The notes under the pieces: generated by a model
The model's database searches: none
What the model was told of the DNA's origin: nothing
The model's input: the letters and a program-made list of their open reading frames with translations, nothing else
Shown here: piece after piece, positions 30,113-41,910 of the stretch
Layout of the letters: each line of letters opens with the position of its first letter
How positions within the stretch are numbered: the stretch's first letter is position 1
Translations under genes and position numbers: made by a program
Assembly: GCA_016934395.1 (NCBI GenBank)
Contig: JAFGSZ010000155.1
Span: forward strand, 33,843 to 97,842
Direction: 5' to 3'
DNA from: Bacteroidales bacterium
GTDB taxonomy: Bacteria; Bacteroidota; Bacteroidia; Bacteroidales; UBA10428
Length of the DNA: 64,000 nucleotides

Positions 30113-31456
30113 ATGAAACTCTGGGACAAGGGCATAAAAATAAGTAAACGTATTGAGGATTTTACGGTGGGAAAAGACCGTGAACTTGATTTGTTTCTTG
30201 CCCCATACGACGTTATTGGGACTCTTGCCCATATTACGATGCTGGAAAGTATTGGTTTACTGAGCAGTGATGAATTAAAAATATTGAAGAATGAACTTTT
30301 GGCGGTCTATAAAAATATTCAGAAAGGAAAATTTATTATTGAAGAAGGAGTTGAAGATGTACATTCGGAAATTGAATATTTATTAACACAAAAACTGGGA
30401 GAAGCTGGCAAAAAAATCCATAGTGGCCGTTCGCGAAACGATCAGGTTTTAGTTGATCTTAAATTATTTTCGAGGGATCGTCTTGAAATTATCGTTCATG
30501 CTGTAAAAGAATTGTTTGATGCTTTTATTGCGCAAAGCGAGCAACATAAAAATATTTTATTACCCGGATATACTCATTTACAGGTTGCCATGCCCTCCTC
30601 ATTTGGGTTGTGGTTTGGGGCATATGCAGAGAGTTTGGTTGATGATCTTATTTTTATTCAGGCTGCGTTTGAAATTGCAAATCAAAATCCATTGGGTTCT
30701 GCAGCCGGTTATGGATCATCATTCCCCCTCAACCGGCAAATGACAACTGATTTACTTGGATTTAAATCCATGAACTATAATGTGGTGTATGCACAAATGG
30801 GCCGAAGTAAACTGGAACGGTCTGTTTCTTTTGCTTTTGCTTCACTGGCCTCCACCATATCCAAATTTGCCATGGATGCTTGTTTATATATGAGTCAGAA
30901 TTTTGGATTTATAAGCCTTCCCGATGAATTAACCACTGGTTCGAGTATAATGCCGCATAAAAAAAACCCGGATATTTTTGAACTTTTAAGAGCCAACTGC
31001 AACAAATTACAAGCTCTTCCTTCAGAAGTTATAATTTTAACCAATAATCTGCCATCTGGATATTTCAGGGATTTCCAGTTACTTAAAGAATCTTTTTTAC
31101 CAGCCTTTTTCAGAATGCAGGATTGTATTGAAATATGCACCTTTATAATTAAAAATATTCGTGTAAACGAACAAAGTATACATGAAGAAAAATATAATTA
31201 TTTGTTTAGTGTAGAAGAAGTCAATAAATCAGTCCTTCAGGGAGTGCCTTTTCGTGAAGCATATAAAAAAACCGCTGAAGATATTGCATCCGGCAAATAT
31301 ACCCCGGAACGTAAAGTAAACCATACGCACGAAGGAAGTATAGGCAACCTCTGCAACGATAAGATAATACATAAAATGGAAGAGAAAATATCAGGTTTTG
31401 AATTTGATTCGATTCATAAAGCAGTGGAAGAATTATTAGAAGAGGATGAAAAATAA
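30113..31456 (+). CDS. argH: Argininosuccinate lyase
   Basis: 447 residues from the ATG at 30113; the frame is open to a TTG at 30080 but MKLWDKGIKISKRIEDF is the normal N-terminus. It splits argininosuccinate into arginine and fumarate. The fumarase/aspartase signature is GSSIMPHKKNPDIFELLRA, with HSGRSRNDQ and the helix signature PGYTHLQVAMP also present. The stop overlaps the start of the next gene by 11 bp, so the following proB-like gene is translationally coupled. Confidence 0.95.
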   Translation: MKLWDKGIKISKRIEDFTVGKDRELDLFLAPYDVIGTLAHITMLESIGLLSSDELKILKNELLAVYKNIQKGKFIIEEGVEDVHSEIEYLLTQKLGEAGKKIHSGRSRNDQVLVDLKLFSRDRLEIIVHAVKELFDAFIAQSEQHKNILLPGYTHLQVAMPSSFGLWFGAYAESLVDDLIFIQAAFEIANQNPLGSAAGYGSSFPLNRQMTTDLLGFKSMNYNVVYAQMGRSKLERSVSFAFASLASTISKFAMDACLYMSQNFGFISLPDELTTGSSIMPHKKNPDIFELLRANCNKLQALPSEVIILTNNLPSGYFRDFQLLKESFLPAFFRMQDCIEICTFIIKNIRVNEQSIHEEKYNYLFSVEEVNKSVLQGVPFREAYKKTAEDIASGKYTPERKVNHTHEGSIGNLCNDKIIHKMEEKISGFEFDSIHKAVEELLEEDEK

Positions 31457-32123
31457 ACAATACAGAATTGTTGTTCGGGTAGAAATTACCACCTTATTGG
31501 ATGATAGGGGTAAGTTGAGCCACGATAAAATGGACCGGCTGGCGATGGTATTATCCAACCTGAAAAACAGCGGAAAACAAATATTACTAGTTTCTTCAGG
31601 AGCTATAGTTTTAGGCACTGAAAAATTGGGATTATCAAAGCAACCTGTTGATTATATCGGTATGATGGCAACAGCTGCTGCCGGACAAGCTGAATTAATA
31701 AAAATATACCAGCATCATTTTGGTGAATATAACCAGATTGTGGCTCAGGTTCTTCTTACTGCCGATATTATTCATTCGTTAGAAAGGGTTGAAAATGCAA
31801 GAAATACATTTAATACTTTATTGGAGATGAATATTCTTCCGATTATCAACGAAAATGATGTGGTTTCCACCTCCGATATCGAATTGAATGATAATTATCC
31901 GCTTGCATTAAATGTAGCCAGAATTGTCGAAGCGCACATGATACTCGTTAAATATGATAATAATGGGAAATTTCTGATTATTCCCAGAGGTAAAAATTCA
32001 TTACAGCTGGTTAACGATGAAAAGGAATTATTGAATTTACTGGAAAATTTTTATAATAAAATGATGCTCGATGAGCGCCTTTCGGAAGAATTTCCTACAA
32101 CCCTTGAAAATGTTGAAATTTGA
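31446..32123 (+). CDS. Degenerate glutamate 5-kinase paralogue (probable pseudo-enzyme)
   Basis: 225 residues, clearly homologous to the intact proB that follows (shared ILLVSSGAI, GQAELIKIYQ, IVAQVLLT, LPIINENDVVST). Key sites are altered. The phosphate-binding lysine start KIGTSTL is VRVEITTLL; the aspartate-rich DNDSLSA is NDNYPLA; the nucleotide loop LSDIDGLYSADP is replaced by VKYDNNGKFLIIPRG; and the GTGGMKTKLTAA segment is missing. It is still an uninterrupted frame with overlap to argH, which argues for selection. It could be a regulatory subunit of ProB, or a decaying copy. Confidence 0.75.
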   Translation: MKNKQYRIVVRVEITTLLDDRGKLSHDKMDRLAMVLSNLKNSGKQILLVSSGAIVLGTEKLGLSKQPVDYIGMMATAAAGQAELIKIYQHHFGEYNQIVAQVLLTADIIHSLERVENARNTFNTLLEMNILPIINENDVVSTSDIELNDNYPLALNVARIVEAHMILVKYDNNGKFLIIPRGKNSLQLVNDEKELLNLLENFYNKMMLDERLSEEFPTTLENVEI

Positions 32124-32133
32124 AAAGAAGCAG

Positions 32134-32949
32134 ATGATGAGAAGCAGGGAAAAAATAAAATATGCCAAACGTATAGTGTTTAAAATAGGAACATCTACAC
32201 TTTCATACCCTAACGGGCGTCTTAATTTTCAACGAATACGCCAGCTTGCAGAAGTATTGAGCACAGTAAAACAACAGGGAAAGGAAGTAATACTGGTAAC
32301 TTCAGGGGCAATTGGAGTAGGCGCCGGACGATTAGGTTTGCTTGAAAAACCGCTTAACCTGGCTAAAAAACAAGCCCTTGCGGCAATTGGTCAGGCCGAA
32401 TTAATAAAAATTTATCAGAAATTTTTCGAAGAACATCATCAGATCGTAGCGCAGGTATTACTAACAAAAGATATTGTAACCAGTCCGCTAAAACACCAGA
32501 ATGCAAAAAATACGCTTGAAAAACTGCTCTCATTGGAAATTATTCCAATAATAAACGAGAATGATACCATTTCCACATACGAAATTGAGTTTGGAGACAA
32601 TGATTCTCTTTCGGCAATGGTATCTACTGCGGTTCAGGCAGATTTACTCATTATGTTATCGGATATCGATGGTTTATATTCTGCTGATCCCAAAATCGAA
32701 AAACACGCTACTATTATAAACACGGTTGAAGAAATCACTCCCGAATTAGAAAAACTTGCTGCAGGCACTGGTACATCATTTGGAACTGGAGGAATGAAAA
32801 CAAAACTGACCGCCGCCAAAATGTGTTCCGATGCCCATATTGATACCATTATTACAAACGGAAGTAATCCTTATATCATATTTGACATTCTTGAAGGACA
32901 AGCTGTTGGAACGCATTTTTTATCTAAACAGGAACATCCGGTAAACTAA
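32134..32949 (+). CDS. proB: Glutamate 5-kinase (single domain, no PUA)
   Basis: About 271 residues. It phosphorylates glutamate at the gamma carboxyl, the first step of proline synthesis. It has the complete amino-acid kinase pattern: VFKIGTSTL, VTSGAIGVGAGRLGL, INENDTISTYEIEFGDNDSL, LSDIDGLYSADP and GTGTSFGTGGMKTKLTAAKM. The C-terminal PUA domain of E. coli ProB is absent. The start is uncertain (ATG at 32071, 32110, 32134 or 32137 in frame). I take 32134, 10 bp after the previous stop, because the upstream residues are not conserved in the family. proA follows after 6 bp. Confidence 0.92.
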   Translation: MMRSREKIKYAKRIVFKIGTSTLSYPNGRLNFQRIRQLAEVLSTVKQQGKEVILVTSGAIGVGAGRLGLLEKPLNLAKKQALAAIGQAELIKIYQKFFEEHHQIVAQVLLTKDIVTSPLKHQNAKNTLEKLLSLEIIPIINENDTISTYEIEFGDNDSLSAMVSTAVQADLLIMLSDIDGLYSADPKIEKHATIINTVEEITPELEKLAAGTGTSFGTGGMKTKLTAAKMCSDAHIDTIITNGSNPYIIFDILEGQAVGTHFLSKQEHPVN

Positions 32950-35727: not shown

Positions 35728-35749
35728 TATCTTTGTTCGTTCAAAGATA
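35728..35749 (+). promoter_or_regulatory. gltB leader promoter -7 element inside a dyad
   Basis: TATCTTTG (35728-35735) is a perfect TAnnTTTG element. It is mirrored by CAAAGATA (35742-35749) around a 6-bp centre, giving an 8-bp perfect dyad that spans the -7 element and the expected start site. No clear -33 element is visible, which may mean an activator is needed or that the dyad is an operator. Confidence 0.6.
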
Positions 35750-35756
35750 TATTACT

Positions 35757-35813
35757 ATGGTCCTTTCAATTAATAATATGAACAACGTGATAAAGATGAA
35801 TAATACCGACTGA
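35757..35813 (+). CDS. Candidate gltB leader peptide (18 codons, Asn-rich)
   Basis: An ATG 15-20 nt after the predicted transcription start opens an 18-codon frame, MVLSINNMNNVIKMNNTD, ending in TGA. It has six Asn codons in three adjacent pairs. The stop codon overlaps the first arm of the antiterminator stem (35812-35819), the geometry expected of a ribosome-mediated attenuator. The frame may be a chance product of an AT-rich sequence. The case rests on its placement relative to the two competing stems. Confidence 0.55.
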   Translation: MVLSINNMNNVIKMNNTD

Positions 35814-35851
35814 GAATGGTATATTTATATATAATGAAGGCAGCCATTCTC
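35812..35851 (+). promoter_or_regulatory. Antiterminator stem of the gltB leader
   Basis: GAGAATGG (35812-35819) pairs perfectly with CCATTCTC (35844-35851) across a 24-nt loop. The second arm is the same segment that forms the 5' side of the terminator at 35843-35872, so the two structures exclude each other. Confidence 0.65.
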
Positions 35852-35872
35852 AAATACAGAATGGCTTTTTTT
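35843..35872 (+). terminator. Terminator of the gltB leader (attenuator)
   Basis: GCCATTCT (35843-35850) and AGAATGGC (35858-35865) pair perfectly around a 7-nt loop and are followed by seven T. It lies 33 bp before the gltB start codon and downstream of a leader promoter, so it would stop transcription before gltB unless the antiterminator forms. Confidence 0.8.
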
Positions 35873-35904: not shown

Positions 35905-38900
35905 ATGATTAATCGATTTCCGAAAGCACAGGGATTATACAATCCAAAGAATGAACATGATAGTTGTGGTATAGGATTCGTCACACAGATAAAGGGAATC
36001 AAATCTCATGATATTGTATCTAAAGGTCTTGAGGTACTTGTAAATATGACCCATAGGGGTGCCGAAAGTTCTGATAATGTTTCAGGAGATGGAGCAGGTA
36101 TTTTAATTCAACTACCCCACAAATTCATTCTTTCTCTGGGTATTAAAGTCCCCGAACCAGGACAATACGGTTCAGGTTTGGTCTTTTTACCACAGGATGA
36201 AACTGAAAGAAAAAAATGCGAACAGATCCTTATAGATTGTTGTATTTCCGAACATCTGGATGTAATTGATATTATCGATGTGAAAACCGATAGCAGCGTA
36301 TTGGGAGAGATTTCAAGAAGTACGGAACCTGTTGTTCGTCAGATATTTGTTGCAGGCCATTTTGAACAGGATGAGCTGGAAAGAAAACTTTATATTGCCC
36401 GGAAACAGGCTGAAAAAAGTGTGAGGGAATCAAACATTAAGAACAAAGAAGCCTTTTATTTACCAAGTTTTTCTTCAAAAATATTTATATATAAAGGCAT
36501 GCTCACACCAGACCAGGTTGAACGGTATTTTATCGACCTGAAAAATCCCAATATGGATAGTGCAATAGCCCTGGTACATTCAAGATTTAGCACAAACACT
36601 TTCCCTACCTGGGATCTCGCTCAGCCTTTCCGGTTTTTAGCACACAATGGTGAAATTAACACTATTAAAGGCAATCGTATGTGGATGACCGCCAGGGAAT
36701 CTCTTATGAAATCTGAATTGTTTGGAGATGACCTTAAAAAGTTATTTCCAATTATTGAGCCCAATAAAAGTGATTCTGCATCGCTTGATAATGCGCTGGA
36801 ATTTCTGGTTCTTACAGGAAAAACGCTGCCACACGCATTAAGCATGCTTATTCCGGAATCCTGGAATGATAAAAACCCGATTCCGGAAAGTCTGAAAGCC
36901 TATTACGAATATCATTCCACTATTATGGAACCCTGGGACGGACCAGCTTCTATTGTTTTCAGCGATGGACGCTACATCGGCGGTACCCTTGACAGAAACG
37001 GATTAAGGCCTTCTAGATTTGTAATTACCCATGATGATGTAATCGTTATGGGATCTGAAGTCGGGGTGCAGGTTTTTCCTCCCGAAAAAATAAAAGAAAA
37101 AGGACGATTGCGCCCGGGAAAAATTCTGCTTGTAGATACAAAATTTGGAATTATTGTTCCCGATGATGATGTAAAGCTTGGGTTAACAGAACGGAATCCA
37201 TATTTTAACTGGCTAAAAGAAAATCGGATTGAACTCAAGGATATTGAAGTAAAAGAGCGCGTACCTACCACTCTTGGTGACCAGTATGATACTTATCTTA
37301 ATGTATTCGGATATACAAAAGAAGACGTAGAAATATTAATTAAGCCTATGGCTCTTCAGGGCCAGGAACCGACAAATTCGATGGGTAATGATACCCCACT
37401 TGCTGTAATGTCGGACAAGCCACAACGCTTGTTTAATTATTTTAAACAGCTTTTTGCCCAGGTTACAAATCCTCCGATCGATCCAATACGCGAAGGGCTC
37501 GTGATGGCGCTTACTAATTATATTGGTTCAGTTTCAAAAAATATTCTAATCGAATCACAGTCGCATTGTAAACTGATTAAATTCCGGCAACCTGTAATAA
37601 CGAATACAGAGCTTGGAAAAATCACCATGCTCGACCAGAATGAATTTTCCTACGAAAGGCTGCCCATGTTGTTTCCCGCTGTTGGCACGGGTAAAGGCAA
37701 AGCTCTTGAAATGGCTCTTGAAGATCTTTGTAATAAGGCAGAAAAAGCCGTAGATAAAGGACGGAATTTTATTATCCTTTCCGATAAAGGAATCAGTAAA
37801 GATATGGCCCCAATCCCATCCTTGCTTGCAGTTTCAGCAGTGCATCATCACCTTATAAATGCAAAAAAACGAATGCAGGTTGGCCTGATAGTTGAAACGG
37901 CAGATGCCCGCGAAGTGCATCATTTTGCATTATTATTGGGTTACGGCGCAAGTGTTGTAAATCCATATGGAGCTTTTGCAATTATTGAAAAATTAACTGA
38001 AAACAGTGATCTGAATATCGATTATGTAAGAGCCCGTGAAAATTATATTAAAGCCATTTCAAAAGGATTATTAAAAATCCTTTCAAAAATGGGAATTTCC
38101 ACGTTGCGAAGCTACCATGGTTCTCAAATATTCGAAGCCCTGGGAATAGATGAAAAAATAACACAAAAATATTTTACCGGAACCGATTCCCGAATTGGAG
38201 GAATTGGAATGGACGAGATTGCTCTGGAAGCCCTGATTCCGCATTCAGAAGCCTATACAGAAAGTAATAAACCTCGTGAAGGATTACATTCACAGGGTAT
38301 TTACAGTTACCGGAAAGACGGGGAGAAGCATAGCTGGAATCCTGAATCTATAGGACTTTTACAATGGGCTACCCGTACCAACAGTTTTGAAAAATATAAA
38401 GAATACAGTAACCTGATTAATTTTGAAAACAGGGAACCTCATTATATAAGAGGATGTGTAAATATTAAAAATAATAATCCCGTTCCACTCGATGAGGTTG
38501 AACCCGCTTCAGAAATTATGAAGCGCTTTGTTACCGGGGCTATGTCATTTGGATCCATTAGCAAAGAAGCTCACGAAGCGCTTGCCATAGCCATGAACAA
38601 AATCGGGGGCAGAAGTAATACCGGCGAAGGCGGTGAAGATCCCAACCGTTTTATCCCGCGCCCTGATGGAACTTATGCCAGAAGCGCTATTAAACAGGTT
38701 GCTTCCGGCCGTTTTGGTGTTACCATTAATTATCTGGTAAATGCAGATGAAATTCAGATAAAAATAGCCCAGGGCGCAAAACCTGGTGAAGGAGGCCAGC
38801 TTCCCGGACACAAAGTGGATAAGATTATTGCTAAAATCCGGAATTCAACTCCCGGAATTACTTTAATATCTCCACCTCCTCATCATGACATATATTCGAT

Positions 38901-40446
38901 TGAAGATTTGGCTCAACTGATTTTTGATTTAAAAAATGCAAATCCAAACGCCAAAATAAACGTAAAGCTGGTTTCTGAAAATGGGGTAGGTACTATTGCT
39001 GCGGGTGTTGCAAAAGCACATGCAGACAGTATTACTATTAGCGGTACTGAAGGCGGTACCGGAGCAAGTCCTGCCAGTTCGATAAAACATGCAGGCCTTC
39101 CGATGGAACTTGGAATTTCTGAAGTGCAACAGACTCTTGTTATGAATAACCTGCGAGACCGGGTTGTTTTACAAACAGACGGACAGATAAAAACAGGAAG
39201 AGATGTGATTTATGCAGGTTTACTGGGCGCTGAAGAATTTGGTTTTGCCACAACGGCTTTAATCGTACTCGGTTGTGTAATGATGAGAAAATGTCATCTG
39301 AACACCTGTCCGGTTGGAGTAGCTACACAGGATAAAGAGCTCAGAAAACGTTTTAACGGAAACTGGGAATATATCGTTAATTATTTTCAATTTGTCGCTA
39401 CTGAAGTACGTGAGCTTCTTGCTGAGATGGGTTTCAGAAAATTCGAAGATATTGTAGGCCGTACTGATTTACTGGAAATGCGAAATGACATCACTCACTG
39501 GAAAGCCAAAAAATTAGATCTTTCACGAATCTTGTATTTGCCTAAAGAAGCCTCAAAATATGCTACACATTGTGTTTGTATGCAAAAGCACAAGATTGAA
39601 GACATTATGGACCATAGTCTGATCAAACAGGCTAATAAGGCAATTAAGAATAAAGAAAAAGTCTGGATTGCTAAAAATATCAGCAACACAGACAGAACCA
39701 CCGGAACCATGTTATCAGGCGAGGTTACTAAAATTCATGGTGCCAATGGACTACCCGACAGCACGATCAACTGCAAATTTACAGGATCTGCCGGTCAGAG
39801 TTTTGGCGCTTTTCTCACTAAAGGAATTCATTTTACATTAGAAGGTGATGCCAATGATTATCTTGGCAAAGGACTTTCTGGGGGCAGAATTGTTGTAGTT
39901 CCTCCAACCGGCTCCACTTTTAAACCGGAAGAAAATATAATCATCGGAAATACGGTACTTTATGGAGCAACAAGTGGCGAGTTATATGTTCGAGGTGTTG
40001 CCGGTGAACGTTTTGGTGTGCGTAACAGCGGGGCAAAAGCGGTAATCGAAGGTGTTGGTGATCATTGTTGCGAATATATGACCGGAGGACGCGCGGTTAT
40101 TTTGGGCACCACAGGTAGAAATTTTGCTGCCGGTATGAGCGGAGGTATAGCATATGTGCTCGATTTAAAAGGCAACTTCTCTTATTTCTGTAATAAAGGA
40201 CTTGTTGAATTAACCTCAGTTGGAGACCATGAAGATATAAGCGAACTCCAGGAATTAATTAACAACCATTATAAATATACACAAAGTGTTCTGGCTGAAA
40301 AAATACTGGTAAACTGGGATGAGTATCTTCCAAAATTTGTAAAAATAATTCCATTTGAATACAAAAAAGTATTGGAAGAAAATAAACTTAAGGAACTGAG
40401 GAAGAAAATCAAAGCCACTGAGGACGAACCTCATTTTCAATATTAA
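35905..40446 (+). CDS. gltB: Glutamate synthase (GOGAT) large subunit
   Basis: 1513 residues. It makes two glutamates from glutamine and 2-oxoglutarate. The amidotransferase domain starts at Cys21 (HDSCGIGFV) after a short propeptide that must be removed. The FMN-binding synthase domain contains MSFGSISKEAHEALAIAMNK, and the [3Fe-4S] cluster motif is CVMMRKCHLNTCPVG (Cys1124, 1130, 1135). The C-terminal glutamate synthase beta-helix (GATSGELYVRGVAGERFGVR) is complete. It is preceded by a probable attenuator and followed 42 bp later by gltD. Confidence 0.97.
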   Translation: MINRFPKAQGLYNPKNEHDSCGIGFVTQIKGIKSHDIVSKGLEVLVNMTHRGAESSDNVSGDGAGILIQLPHKFILSLGIKVPEPGQYGSGLVFLPQDETERKKCEQILIDCCISEHLDVIDIIDVKTDSSVLGEISRSTEPVVRQIFVAGHFEQDELERKLYIARKQAEKSVRESNIKNKEAFYLPSFSSKIFIYKGMLTPDQVERYFIDLKNPNMDSAIALVHSRFSTNTFPTWDLAQPFRFLAHNGEINTIKGNRMWMTARESLMKSELFGDDLKKLFPIIEPNKSDSASLDNALEFLVLTGKTLPHALSMLIPESWNDKNPIPESLKAYYEYHSTIMEPWDGPASIVFSDGRYIGGTLDRNGLRPSRFVITHDDVIVMGSEVGVQVFPPEKIKEKGRLRPGKILLVDTKFGIIVPDDDVKLGLTERNPYFNWLKENRIELKDIEVKERVPTTLGDQYDTYLNVFGYTKEDVEILIKPMALQGQEPTNSMGNDTPLAVMSDKPQRLFNYFKQLFAQVTNPPIDPIREGLVMALTNYIGSVSKNILIESQSHCKLIKFRQPVITNTELGKITMLDQNEFSYERLPMLFPAVGTGKGKALEMALEDLCNKAEKAVDKGRNFIILSDKGISKDMAPIPSLLAVSAVHHHLINAKKRMQVGLIVETADAREVHHFALLLGYGASVVNPYGAFAIIEKLTENSDLNIDYVRARENYIKAISKGLLKILSKMGISTLRSYHGSQIFEALGIDEKITQKYFTGTDSRIGGIGMDEIALEALIPHSEAYTESNKPREGLHSQGIYSYRKDGEKHSWNPESIGLLQWATRTNSFEKYKEYSNLINFENREPHYIRGCVNIKNNNPVPLDEVEPASEIMKRFVTGAMSFGSISKEAHEALAIAMNKIGGRSNTGEGGEDPNRFIPRPDGTYARSAIKQVASGRFGVTINYLVNADEIQIKIAQGAKPGEGGQLPGHKVDKIIAKIRNSTPGITLISPPPHHDIYSIEDLAQLIFDLKNANPNAKINVKLVSENGVGTIAAGVAKAHADSITISGTEGGTGASPASSIKHAGLPMELGISEVQQTLVMNNLRDRVVLQTDGQIKTGRDVIYAGLLGAEEFGFATTALIVLGCVMMRKCHLNTCPVGVATQDKELRKRFNGNWEYIVNYFQFVATEVRELLAEMGFRKFEDIVGRTDLLEMRNDITHWKAKKLDLSRILYLPKEASKYATHCVCMQKHKIEDIMDHSLIKQANKAIKNKEKVWIAKNISNTDRTTGTMLSGEVTKIHGANGLPDSTINCKFTGSAGQSFGAFLTKGIHFTLEGDANDYLGKGLSGGRIVVVPPTGSTFKPEENIIIGNTVLYGATSGELYVRGVAGERFGVRNSGAKAVIEGVGDHCCEYMTGGRAVILGTTGRNFAAGMSGGIAYVLDLKGNFSYFCNKGLVELTSVGDHEDISELQELINNHYKYTQSVLAEKILVNWDEYLPKFVKIIPFEYKKVLEENKLKELRKKIKATEDEPHFQY

Positions 40447-40488: not shown

Positions 40489-41910
40489 ATGGGAAATCCA
40501 AAGGGATTTATGCAGGTAAAAAGAAAACCTGCCGGTTACCGGCCTATTACTGAGCGGGTATATGATTATGGTGAAGTGGAGCAGACCCTGAACGAACAGG
40601 ATAGAAAACGGCAGGCTTCGCGATGTATGGACTGTGGAGTTCCTTTTTGTCAATGGGGATGCCCGGTTATGAATAATATGCCCGAATGGCAGGATGCTAT
40701 ATATAAAGGAGATTGGAAAGCTGCCATTGATGGTTTGCATGTTACCAATAATTTTCCTGAATTTACCGGAAGGATATGTCCTGCTCCCTGTGAAAATGCC
40801 TGTACATTAAATATCAGTAAAGACCCGGTTACCATTCGGGAAAATGAGTGCGCTGCAGTGGAGAAAGGATTTGAGCTGGGCTTTATCGTTCCTAAACCAC
40901 CTAAAATCCGCACCGGTAAAAAAGTCGCGGTTATCGGATCGGGCCCCGCGGGTTTAGCTTGTGCTGACCTGTTGAATAAATGGGGACATACAGTAACTCT
41001 TTATGAAAAAGATGAAGCAGCCGGTGGATTATTACGATTTGGAATTCCGGACTTTAAACTGAATAAAAAAGTTATTGACCGACGCCTGAACATACTTACT
41101 GCCGAAGGATTAAATATTCTGGTAAATACAGAAGTAGGTAAGGATATTTCGGGTAAAGATTTGCTTAAAGAATTTGATGCCGTATGTCTTGCTATTGGGG
41201 CCATGCAACCCCGCGATTTGCCCGTAGAAGGAAGAGATCTTAAGGGAGTATATTTTGCCATGGAATTTCTTACTCAACAAAACAAGATTAACCGGGGTAT
41301 TCAGATTCCGGAAGAAGAACGTATTCTGGCCAAAGATAAAAATGTAGTGGTAATTGGCGGAGGTGATACCGGTTCCGATTGTGTGGGTACCTCAGTGCGC
41401 CATGAGGCTAAAAATATTTTACAGGTTGAAATTTTACCCCAGCCTCCGTTGGAGAGAAAAGCAGATAATCCCTGGCCATACTGGGGTAATATCCTCAGAA
41501 CATCCAGCTCTCATGAAGAAGGTTGTGAACGGAAGTGGAACATTGCCACAAAACGGTTTATTGGCGAAAACGGTCAGCTTAAACAAATTGAAATAGTGGA
41601 GGTAAACTGGGTAAATGAAAATGGTAAAATGACCATGGTTGAAAAAACAGGTTCTAAAAAGATTATTGATGCTGATCTTGCCTTTCTTTCTATGGGTTTT
41701 GTGCATCCGGTTCATGAAGGACTGGCTGATGCTTTTGGATTGGAATATGATGGCCGTGGAAATATTAAAGTGGATAAAGATAACCAGACTTCGGTAAAAA
41801 AAGTATTTGCAGCAGGTGATGCAGTAAGTGGAGCCAGCTTGGTTGTTCGTGCCATATATGCCGGAAGAAAAGCAGCAGAAAACATTGATGCATTTTTACA
41901 GACAAAATAA
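40489..41910 (+). CDS. gltD: Glutamate synthase small subunit
   Basis: 473 residues. It passes electrons from NAD(P)H through FAD and iron-sulfur clusters to GltB. The N-terminal cluster-binding region has CMDCGVPFCQWGCP and GRICPAPCENACTL. The FAD motif is VAVIGSGPAGLACADLL and the NAD(P)H motif VVVIGGGDTGSDCVGT. The end, VFAAGDAVSGASLVVRAIY, is typical. It is followed by a clear terminator at 41926-41962. Confidence 0.97.
   Translation: MGNPKGFMQVKRKPAGYRPITERVYDYGEVEQTLNEQDRKRQASRCMDCGVPFCQWGCPVMNNMPEWQDAIYKGDWKAAIDGLHVTNNFPEFTGRICPAPCENACTLNISKDPVTIRENECAAVEKGFELGFIVPKPPKIRTGKKVAVIGSGPAGLACADLLNKWGHTVTLYEKDEAAGGLLRFGIPDFKLNKKVIDRRLNILTAEGLNILVNTEVGKDISGKDLLKEFDAVCLAIGAMQPRDLPVEGRDLKGVYFAMEFLTQQNKINRGIQIPEEERILAKDKNVVVIGGGDTGSDCVGTSVRHEAKNILQVEILPQPPLERKADNPWPYWGNILRTSSSHEEGCERKWNIATKRFIGENGQLKQIEIVEVNWVNENGKMTMVEKTGSKKIIDADLAFLSMGFVHPVHEGLADAFGLEYDGRGNIKVDKDNQTSVKKVFAAGDAVSGASLVVRAIYAGRKAAENIDAFLQTK

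Follow-up and report, generated by a model that had tools for sequence, protein, structure and literature searches.

Amino-acid operons such as trp, his, leu, ilv, thr and phe of Proteobacteria and Actinobacteria are classically controlled by ribosome-mediated attenuators, in which a short frame with regulatory codons ends in a stop at the first arm of two mutually exclusive structures, an antiterminator and a terminator with a U run. Control of nitrogen assimilation is generally attributed to PII, NtrC, Lrp, CodY, TnrA or glutamine riboswitches. To our knowledge, amino-acid regulation in Bacteroidota is poorly known; the Bacteroid-trp RNA motif (RF01692), a cis-regulatory RNA of this phylum, is presumably the attenuator of a trp leader. 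This motif is listed in Table 1 of PMC2864571. Attenuation of ilv, leu and trp is covered for Corynebacterium (PMC6892785), leader genes have been surveyed (PMC4833913), short frames reminiscent of leader peptides are reported in B. thetaiotaomicron (PMC7366714), and gltD and ilvD motifs of other bacteria are presented in PMC8632094, the main text of which, as far as it is accessible, contains no word starting with “bacteroid”. The accessible text of these five papers does not describe the gltB element reported here. A search of openly licensed papers, which is not proof of absence, returned no description in accessible text of gltB attenuation in Bacteroidota or of the leuA/ilvD family to which the element is related.

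The window, a stretch of 64,000 nucleotides from a Bacteroidales genome, carries argG, argH, proline genes and citrate synthase, followed by gltB and gltD. The large subunit of glutamate synthase is encoded by gltB (35905..40446; NCBIfam NF008730, 1778 bits, cut-off 1047) and the small subunit by gltD (40489..41910; TIGR01317, 625 bits, cut-off 448), predicted to lie in the same operon; these genes and all leader features are on the forward strand. Positions 31446-32949 hold two frames, adjacent and overlapping, each of which matches glutamate 5-kinase (proB). The second scores above the curated cut-off (316 bits against 186) and the first, which is shorter, below it (157 bits).

Between citrate synthase and gltB lies a TAnnTTTG motif, TATCTTTG (35728..35735), which is predicted from the sequence to be the -7 element of a Bacteroidota promoter. 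It is followed by a leader frame of 18 codons, MVLSINNMNNVIKMNNTD (35757..35813), that starts with ATG at 35757-35759 and contains three Asn-Asn pairs within 35772..35804 (AAT-AAT at 35772-35777, AAC-AAC at 35781-35786 and AAT-AAT at 35799-35804). The sixth codon before the stop, referred to here as codon −6, is AAG for Lys (35793..35795). The TGA stop (35811-35813) overlaps arm 1, GAGAATGG (35812..35819), the 5' side of a predicted antiterminator. Arm 2, GCCATTCTC (35843..35851), is common to the predicted antiterminator and terminator, and arm 3, AGAATGGC (35858..35865), forms the 3' side of the terminator; folding and covariation support all three assignments. A run of seven T (35866..35872), read from the sequence, completes the predicted intrinsic terminator. 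The sequence-only reading that led to this analysis had picked out the promoter motif, the frame, the overlap of stop and arm 1, the three arms and the T run, and each is in place.

The two hairpins are unusually stable for their composition. Folding energies are -15.2 kcal/mol for the arm 1:2 hairpin and -11.1 kcal/mol for the arm 2:3 hairpin (z -4.4 each), with 0/200 dinucleotide shuffles as good in either case; the leader folded whole is less extreme (z -1.8, 8/200 shuffles as good). Folding prediction and covariation thus describe a mutually exclusive antiterminator and terminator with a U run, as in an attenuator. The whole-leader fold also pairs 35796-35808 with 35817-35828, which includes the final three bases of arm 1. 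A fourth, protector arm was considered on this basis and rejected, as inspection by eye found no counterpart of this pairing in relatives.

Conservation across relatives is the decisive evidence that the predicted element is real. In the window's family as grouped by our tool (f1), 23 genomes were searched and 21 have gltB; the element is present at 19 of these 21 loci. It is missing in G001 and G015, whose gltB genes are more divergent (48% and 55% identity). On the reverse strand of L040, at about 1490-1640, G015 carries an element whose leader, MKNHTNTSNQNKNVRK, is rich in Asn but which has no gltB behind it; it has the look of an orphan that a replacement left behind. A first covariance model, built from 26 elements, also finds the element before gltB in families f8, f15, f38, f64 and f118 and in one named record, including 3/5 gltB loci of f38 and 5/5 of f64. 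The named record (L166, DLM2.Bin11; E 1.2e-6) is the one carrier among 20 named loci scanned with this model, all Bacteroidota by title except L167 (Spirochaetia by title); two further weak matches among the named loci are not at gltB. A second model, built from 99 elements, was run on 92 further sources and matched none of them at E up to 0.3; these are 82 gltB loci of the order, nine named contigs and L266, a known divergent member (E 0.35). The putative gltB switch is patchy within the order, as judged from these searches, and strongly drifted arms would escape the second model.

The arms also covary. In an alignment of 109 rows, seven of them antisense, the terminator (arm 2:3) has 99.0% of cells paired and 65 double-change cells, and 0/500 shuffles were as high on either measure. 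The antiterminator (arm 1:2) has 96.4% of cells paired and 14 double-change cells, again with 0/500 shuffles as high, and its count is the less biased, the alignment having been fitted to the terminator. In slid controls, pairing reaches no more than 59.7% and 64.7%. Counting pairs with any double change gives five for the terminator, a number reached by 103/500 shuffles, and four for the antiterminator, reached by 10/500. In a first alignment of 26 rows, the terminator exceeded the shuffles and the antiterminator showed no covariation above them (442/500 paired as well, 184/500 had as many double changes). Further detail comes from the 102 sense rows, that is, with the seven antisense rows of the 109-row statistics left out. 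All three arms change together in several of these (T/A/T to A/T/A in five, A/T/A to C/G/C in one), and 12 of 41 departures in arm 2 break 1:2 pairing yet keep 2:3. A TATA or TATG follows arm 1 in 52/102 of the rows (columns 11-14), outside the arm pairing. The sequence-only reading had proposed testing whether arms 1, 2 and 3 and the Asn runs covary in related genomes and had tied its case to conservation of the small frame and arms; the arms do covary, and the layout, arms and frame are kept in relatives.

Conservation extends to the reading frame. In 36 of 38 gltB elements, a frame of 13-30 codons runs from an ATG to a stop at arm 1, against 3.4 expected from shuffled upstream DNA (0/20000 simulations reached 36); L016 and L274 are the two without an in-register leader. 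The stop occupies the same offset in 33 of these 36 leaders and lies one or two codons upstream in the other three, and it is kept though its codon varies (TGA 30, TAA 4, TAG 2). In the 36 scored leaders, the stop is therefore placed where a terminating ribosome would cover the first arm. The synonymous fraction lies above every one of 200 null draws in f8 (0.214, null maximum 0.166), in f15 (0.488, null maximum 0.350) and in f1g4 (0.116, null maximum 0.112), and the other three of the six lineages (f38, f64, f1g3) show no clear excess over their 200 draws. Upstream of the frame, exact copies of TAnnTTTG are common, yet do not occur in every one of the first 38 gltB elements. Each of 19 gltB loci from genomes held out of the initial analysis has the motif 84-88 bases upstream of the leader stop. 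A short frame, predicted to be translated, thus lies between the predicted promoter and terminator. Where several ATG codons were in frame, the start was picked by hand, which leaves codon −6 unaffected.

The same element precedes genes of branched-chain amino acid (BCAA) synthesis. A search with the exact three-arm pattern matched loci other than gltB, namely leuA three times, ilvD once and one orphan element, with MKAINSILAIILLLGIILISA and MTNIIILVNVLLLVVVIRTTG as example leaders at the leuA and ilvD loci. Covariance-model matches at E up to 0.01 occur in 103 of 393 genomes of the order, the weakest including chance matches. Within 80 stretches taken around the better matches, rather than around all of them, 83 matches were classified by a script through signature motifs: 42 lie before ilvD, 18 before leuA and 11 before gltB, and the 12 other or unclear ones (ilvB, ilvE, unclear or chance, by eye) were left out of the counts below. 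Three clear copies occur in the genome of the window itself, before gltB, leuA (L078, leader MSLLQSILSIILILGILKIPK) and ilvD (L079, leader MRNIIVIVSIVLISVLRMLR), the latter two genes being named by NCBIfam profile match; the next sense candidate reaches only E 0.27. Across the class, the second model matches 13 of 395 genomes at E up to 0.001, five in the window's order and eight outside it. Five matches outside the order (L334, L335, L336, L341, L343) precede ilvE-like genes and have mostly BCAA-rich leaders; of the two ilvE-like genes checked, that of L334 scores above the curated cut-off for branched-chain transaminase and that of L335 matches below it.

The leuA and ilvD elements resemble the gltB element in their arms and, for the most part, in the position of the stop, and one covariance model finds all three groups. 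They differ in their Leu/Ile/Val-rich leaders and in the residue at codon −6. Relative to dinucleotide shuffles, I/L/V dominate throughout (V z 16 and I z 12 for ilvD, I z 9.5 for leuA). One leuA and one ilvD element have no leader by the rule used, and L036, L037, L044 and L045 fall outside the 17 leuA and 41 ilvD leaders scored. Two complete tandem attenuators, with differing arms and each with its own I/L/V-rich leader, precede ilvD in L085, L094 and L138. In some elements (L036, L037, L045; leuA, ilvD) the T run after arm 3 is weak or interrupted, and termination there may be leaky as a result.

Compared position by position, codon −6 is the single sharp constraint common to the gltB, leuA and ilvD leaders. 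It encodes I, L or V in 41/41 ilvD and 16/17 leuA leaders. In the 36 gltB leaders I/L/V is found 0/36 times and the residues are K 15, N 9, R 4, H 3, Q 1, G 2, E 1 and T 1. The class K/N/R/H/Q thus occupies this position in 32/36 leaders, against 13.7 expected when residues are shuffled within leaders, and 0/5000 permutations reached 32/36 at any of 14 positions, with the qualifications that the class was chosen after looking and that the permutations treat related leaders as independent. K/N/H/Q outnumber D/E/Y by 28 to 1 at codon −6 and by 182 to 54 elsewhere (one-sided p 0.007), so the bias follows the amino acids and not only the presence of A in the codon. No synonymous-codon bias was found at this position, where AAG/AAA, AGG/AGA and AAC/AAT are used as elsewhere in the leaders, and pausing at a rare codon was rejected for that reason. 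Across five genes of the window, AAG is the minority choice for Lys (0.15).

The rule for the class at codon −6 was fixed in writing before any locus from an unseen genome was retrieved. Of the four families searched, two had no unseen genome with gltB, and the 19 held-out loci come from the others (17 from f8, two from f15). The model found 18 of the 19, and in L346, which it missed, the arms were placed by eye. Codon −6 is K or R in 15 of the 19, the misses being Ser, Gly, Ile and Ser; the Ile is that of L364, which has no ATG and is counted among the 19 loci while standing outside the 18 held-out leaders. Arg within f8 accounts for 12 of the 15 successes. The replication is weak in number, as the f8 leaders are mostly near relatives of known ones, and informative in kind. 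Across 13 aligned 20-codon leaders of f8 (two old, 11 new), the best-kept columns are His, Asn, Lys, Arg/Lys, His, Lys and Arg, and also include Ser, Ile and Gly. Altogether 47 of 54 scored leaders obey the rule (f1 17/18, f8 18/21, f15 4/5, f38 3/3, f64 4/5, f118 1/1, named record 0/1). L016, L274 and L364 are outside the 54; the open frame of L016, which is also outside the 36, would place Ser at −6.

On balance, we consider it probable, at roughly 60%, that the gltBD leader is a ribosome-mediated attenuator responsive to codons for amino acids that carry side-chain nitrogen, and that it represents a re-aimed BCAA scaffold. The parts, their conservation, the covariation of the arms, the frame and the class at −6 come from sequence and comparison, and from these we infer the transcription start, termination, ribosome stalling and signal. 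An undelayed ribosome would reach the stop and cover arm 1, allowing the arm 2:3 terminator to form. A ribosome held at about codon −6 would leave arm 1 free, so that the 1:2 antiterminator could form and transcription could enter gltBD. This direction of switching, with a stop-bound ribosome permitting the terminator and an upstream stall freeing arm 1, is suggested by the layout. On an untranslated leader, read-through would be expected through formation of the antiterminator, the first of the two hairpins to be made and the more stable one. In the window, the codons read would be Lys at −6 amid the Asn runs. When nitrogen assimilation falls short, scarcity of charged tRNAs for Lys, Asn, Arg and His would raise glutamate synthase.

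The position of codon −6 is compatible with this mechanism. The ribosomal footprint extends at most about 12 nt downstream (PMC4833913), and the leading edge of a ribosome with codon −6 in the A site would lie a few bases before arm 1. Arm 1 would stay clear during a stall at −6 or −5 and begin to be covered by one at −4 or later. In leuA and ilvD leaders I/L/V falls off after −5, which fits codons up to about −5 signalling and later ones not doing so. More broadly, the Leu/Ile/Val-rich leuA and ilvD leaders support an attenuator at gltB by analogy. The codons match the regulated pathway clearly in these two groups; the gltB leaders show a class bias at −6 and no single amino acid. The residues at −6 are amino acids with side-chain nitrogen, which would suit a nitrogen-assimilation gene. 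We tentatively suggest that a BCAA attenuator was duplicated and recoded, such that the fixed codon now tests a nitrogen-rich class (Lys, Asn, Arg, His, Gln) in which the amino acid drifts and the class and position stay. If true, glutamate synthase would be under a nitrogen sensor that requires no protein.

The sequence-only reading had favored a narrower signal, in which only Asn codons count and the supply of asparagine sets glutamate synthase. The three Asn-Asn pairs of the window suggest this, and Asn is modestly enriched in f1, being present in 17/18 leaders and making up 46 of 281 codons in the 18 leaders, against 31.3 expected (0/1000 dinucleotide shuffles). That part of the claim holds within the family, but it does not extend beyond it: Asn is not enriched across all 36 gltB leaders (64 against 59.3 expected) or in the 18 held-out ones (21 against 21.2), L009 of f1 lacks it altogether, and codon −6 of the window is itself Lys. 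Preferences differ by lineage, with His and Lys enriched in f64, Lys in f38 and Glu and Leu slightly in f15, while f8 leaders favor His and Arg. An asparagine-specific attenuator is therefore improbable. Somewhat better placed, if still unlikely, is a general sensor of translation speed or starvation, whereby no codons are specific and any slowing of the ribosome frees arm 1 and raises gltB. The leader peptides diverge widely among families with no dominant amino acid, unlike those of leuA and ilvD, and the expected read-through of an untranslated leader, given an arm 1:2 hairpin that precedes arm 3 and is more stable, is in keeping with such a sensor. It does not account for a strong, gene-specific constraint at codon −6 or for the marked His/Lys excess in some lineages. 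Nitrogen-rich residues were also considered as a signal carried by the whole leader and rejected as weak: K/N/R/H/Q/W are mildly enriched over whole gltB leaders (248/639 against 221 expected, z 3.1), far under the BCAA signal of the related leaders, and the signal is positional.

Lys, Arg and His make up 37 of the 54 residues at codon −6, as would be expected if the charge of these residues in the nascent chain slowed the ribosome regardless of tRNA charging. Uncharged Asn nevertheless occupies the position in 9/54, and I/L/V in the leuA and ilvD leaders points to decoding rather than charge; we give pausing on basic residues little weight. The least probable explanation is that a riboswitch or RNA-binding protein uses the arms and that the small frame is incidental. 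Arm 1 does seem conserved beyond the needs of pairing, and the TATA/TATG beside it recurs in about half of the rows. Such an explanation is hard to reconcile with the number of in-register frames, the synonymous excess in three lineages, the BCAA-rich leaders before leuA and ilvD, and the lack of an Rfam match at gathering scores over the leader and eight related loci. Decoding of codons for nitrogen-rich amino acids by a ribosome on the leader remains the reading we prefer.

At Rfam gathering scores only tRNAs pass in the window, with no family over the gltB leader, and none passes at eight related loci. Matches of the leader at E up to 5 are all sub-threshold, for example Thr_leader at 17.8 bits, where the gathering score is 55. 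A T-box or known riboswitch, including the glutamine riboswitches, was rejected since neither the leader nor the eight related loci gave a passing match. At its gathering score RF01692 matches neither the leader nor the eight related loci, and the leader stays unmatched with E relaxed to 5, so Bacteroid-trp was likewise rejected. The element belongs to an attenuator family for which no Rfam match was found.

A leader-peptide attenuator that ties glutamate synthase to the charging of tRNAs for nitrogen-rich amino acids would be a new input to nitrogen control. In addition, one scaffold serves several genes, and its specificity codon at −6 may allow sequence to predict what each operon senses. 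With the gltD (SRC-18-1) motif, the gltB element has in common that it is a cis-element ahead of a glutamate synthase gene; that motif differs, in the accessible account, as a proposed riboswitch whose hairpin appears to occlude the ribosome-binding site (PMC8632094). With Bacteroid-trp it shares its nature as a cis-regulatory RNA of Bacteroidota. It resembles the classical attenuators in layout, sharing the short frame with putative regulatory codons, the stop at the first arm, the mutually exclusive antiterminator and terminator, and the U run. It is unlike them in having three arms, with no conserved protector hairpin seen, in its target, which is glutamate synthase rather than the pathway of one amino acid, and in its key codon, which is defined by a class of amino acids.
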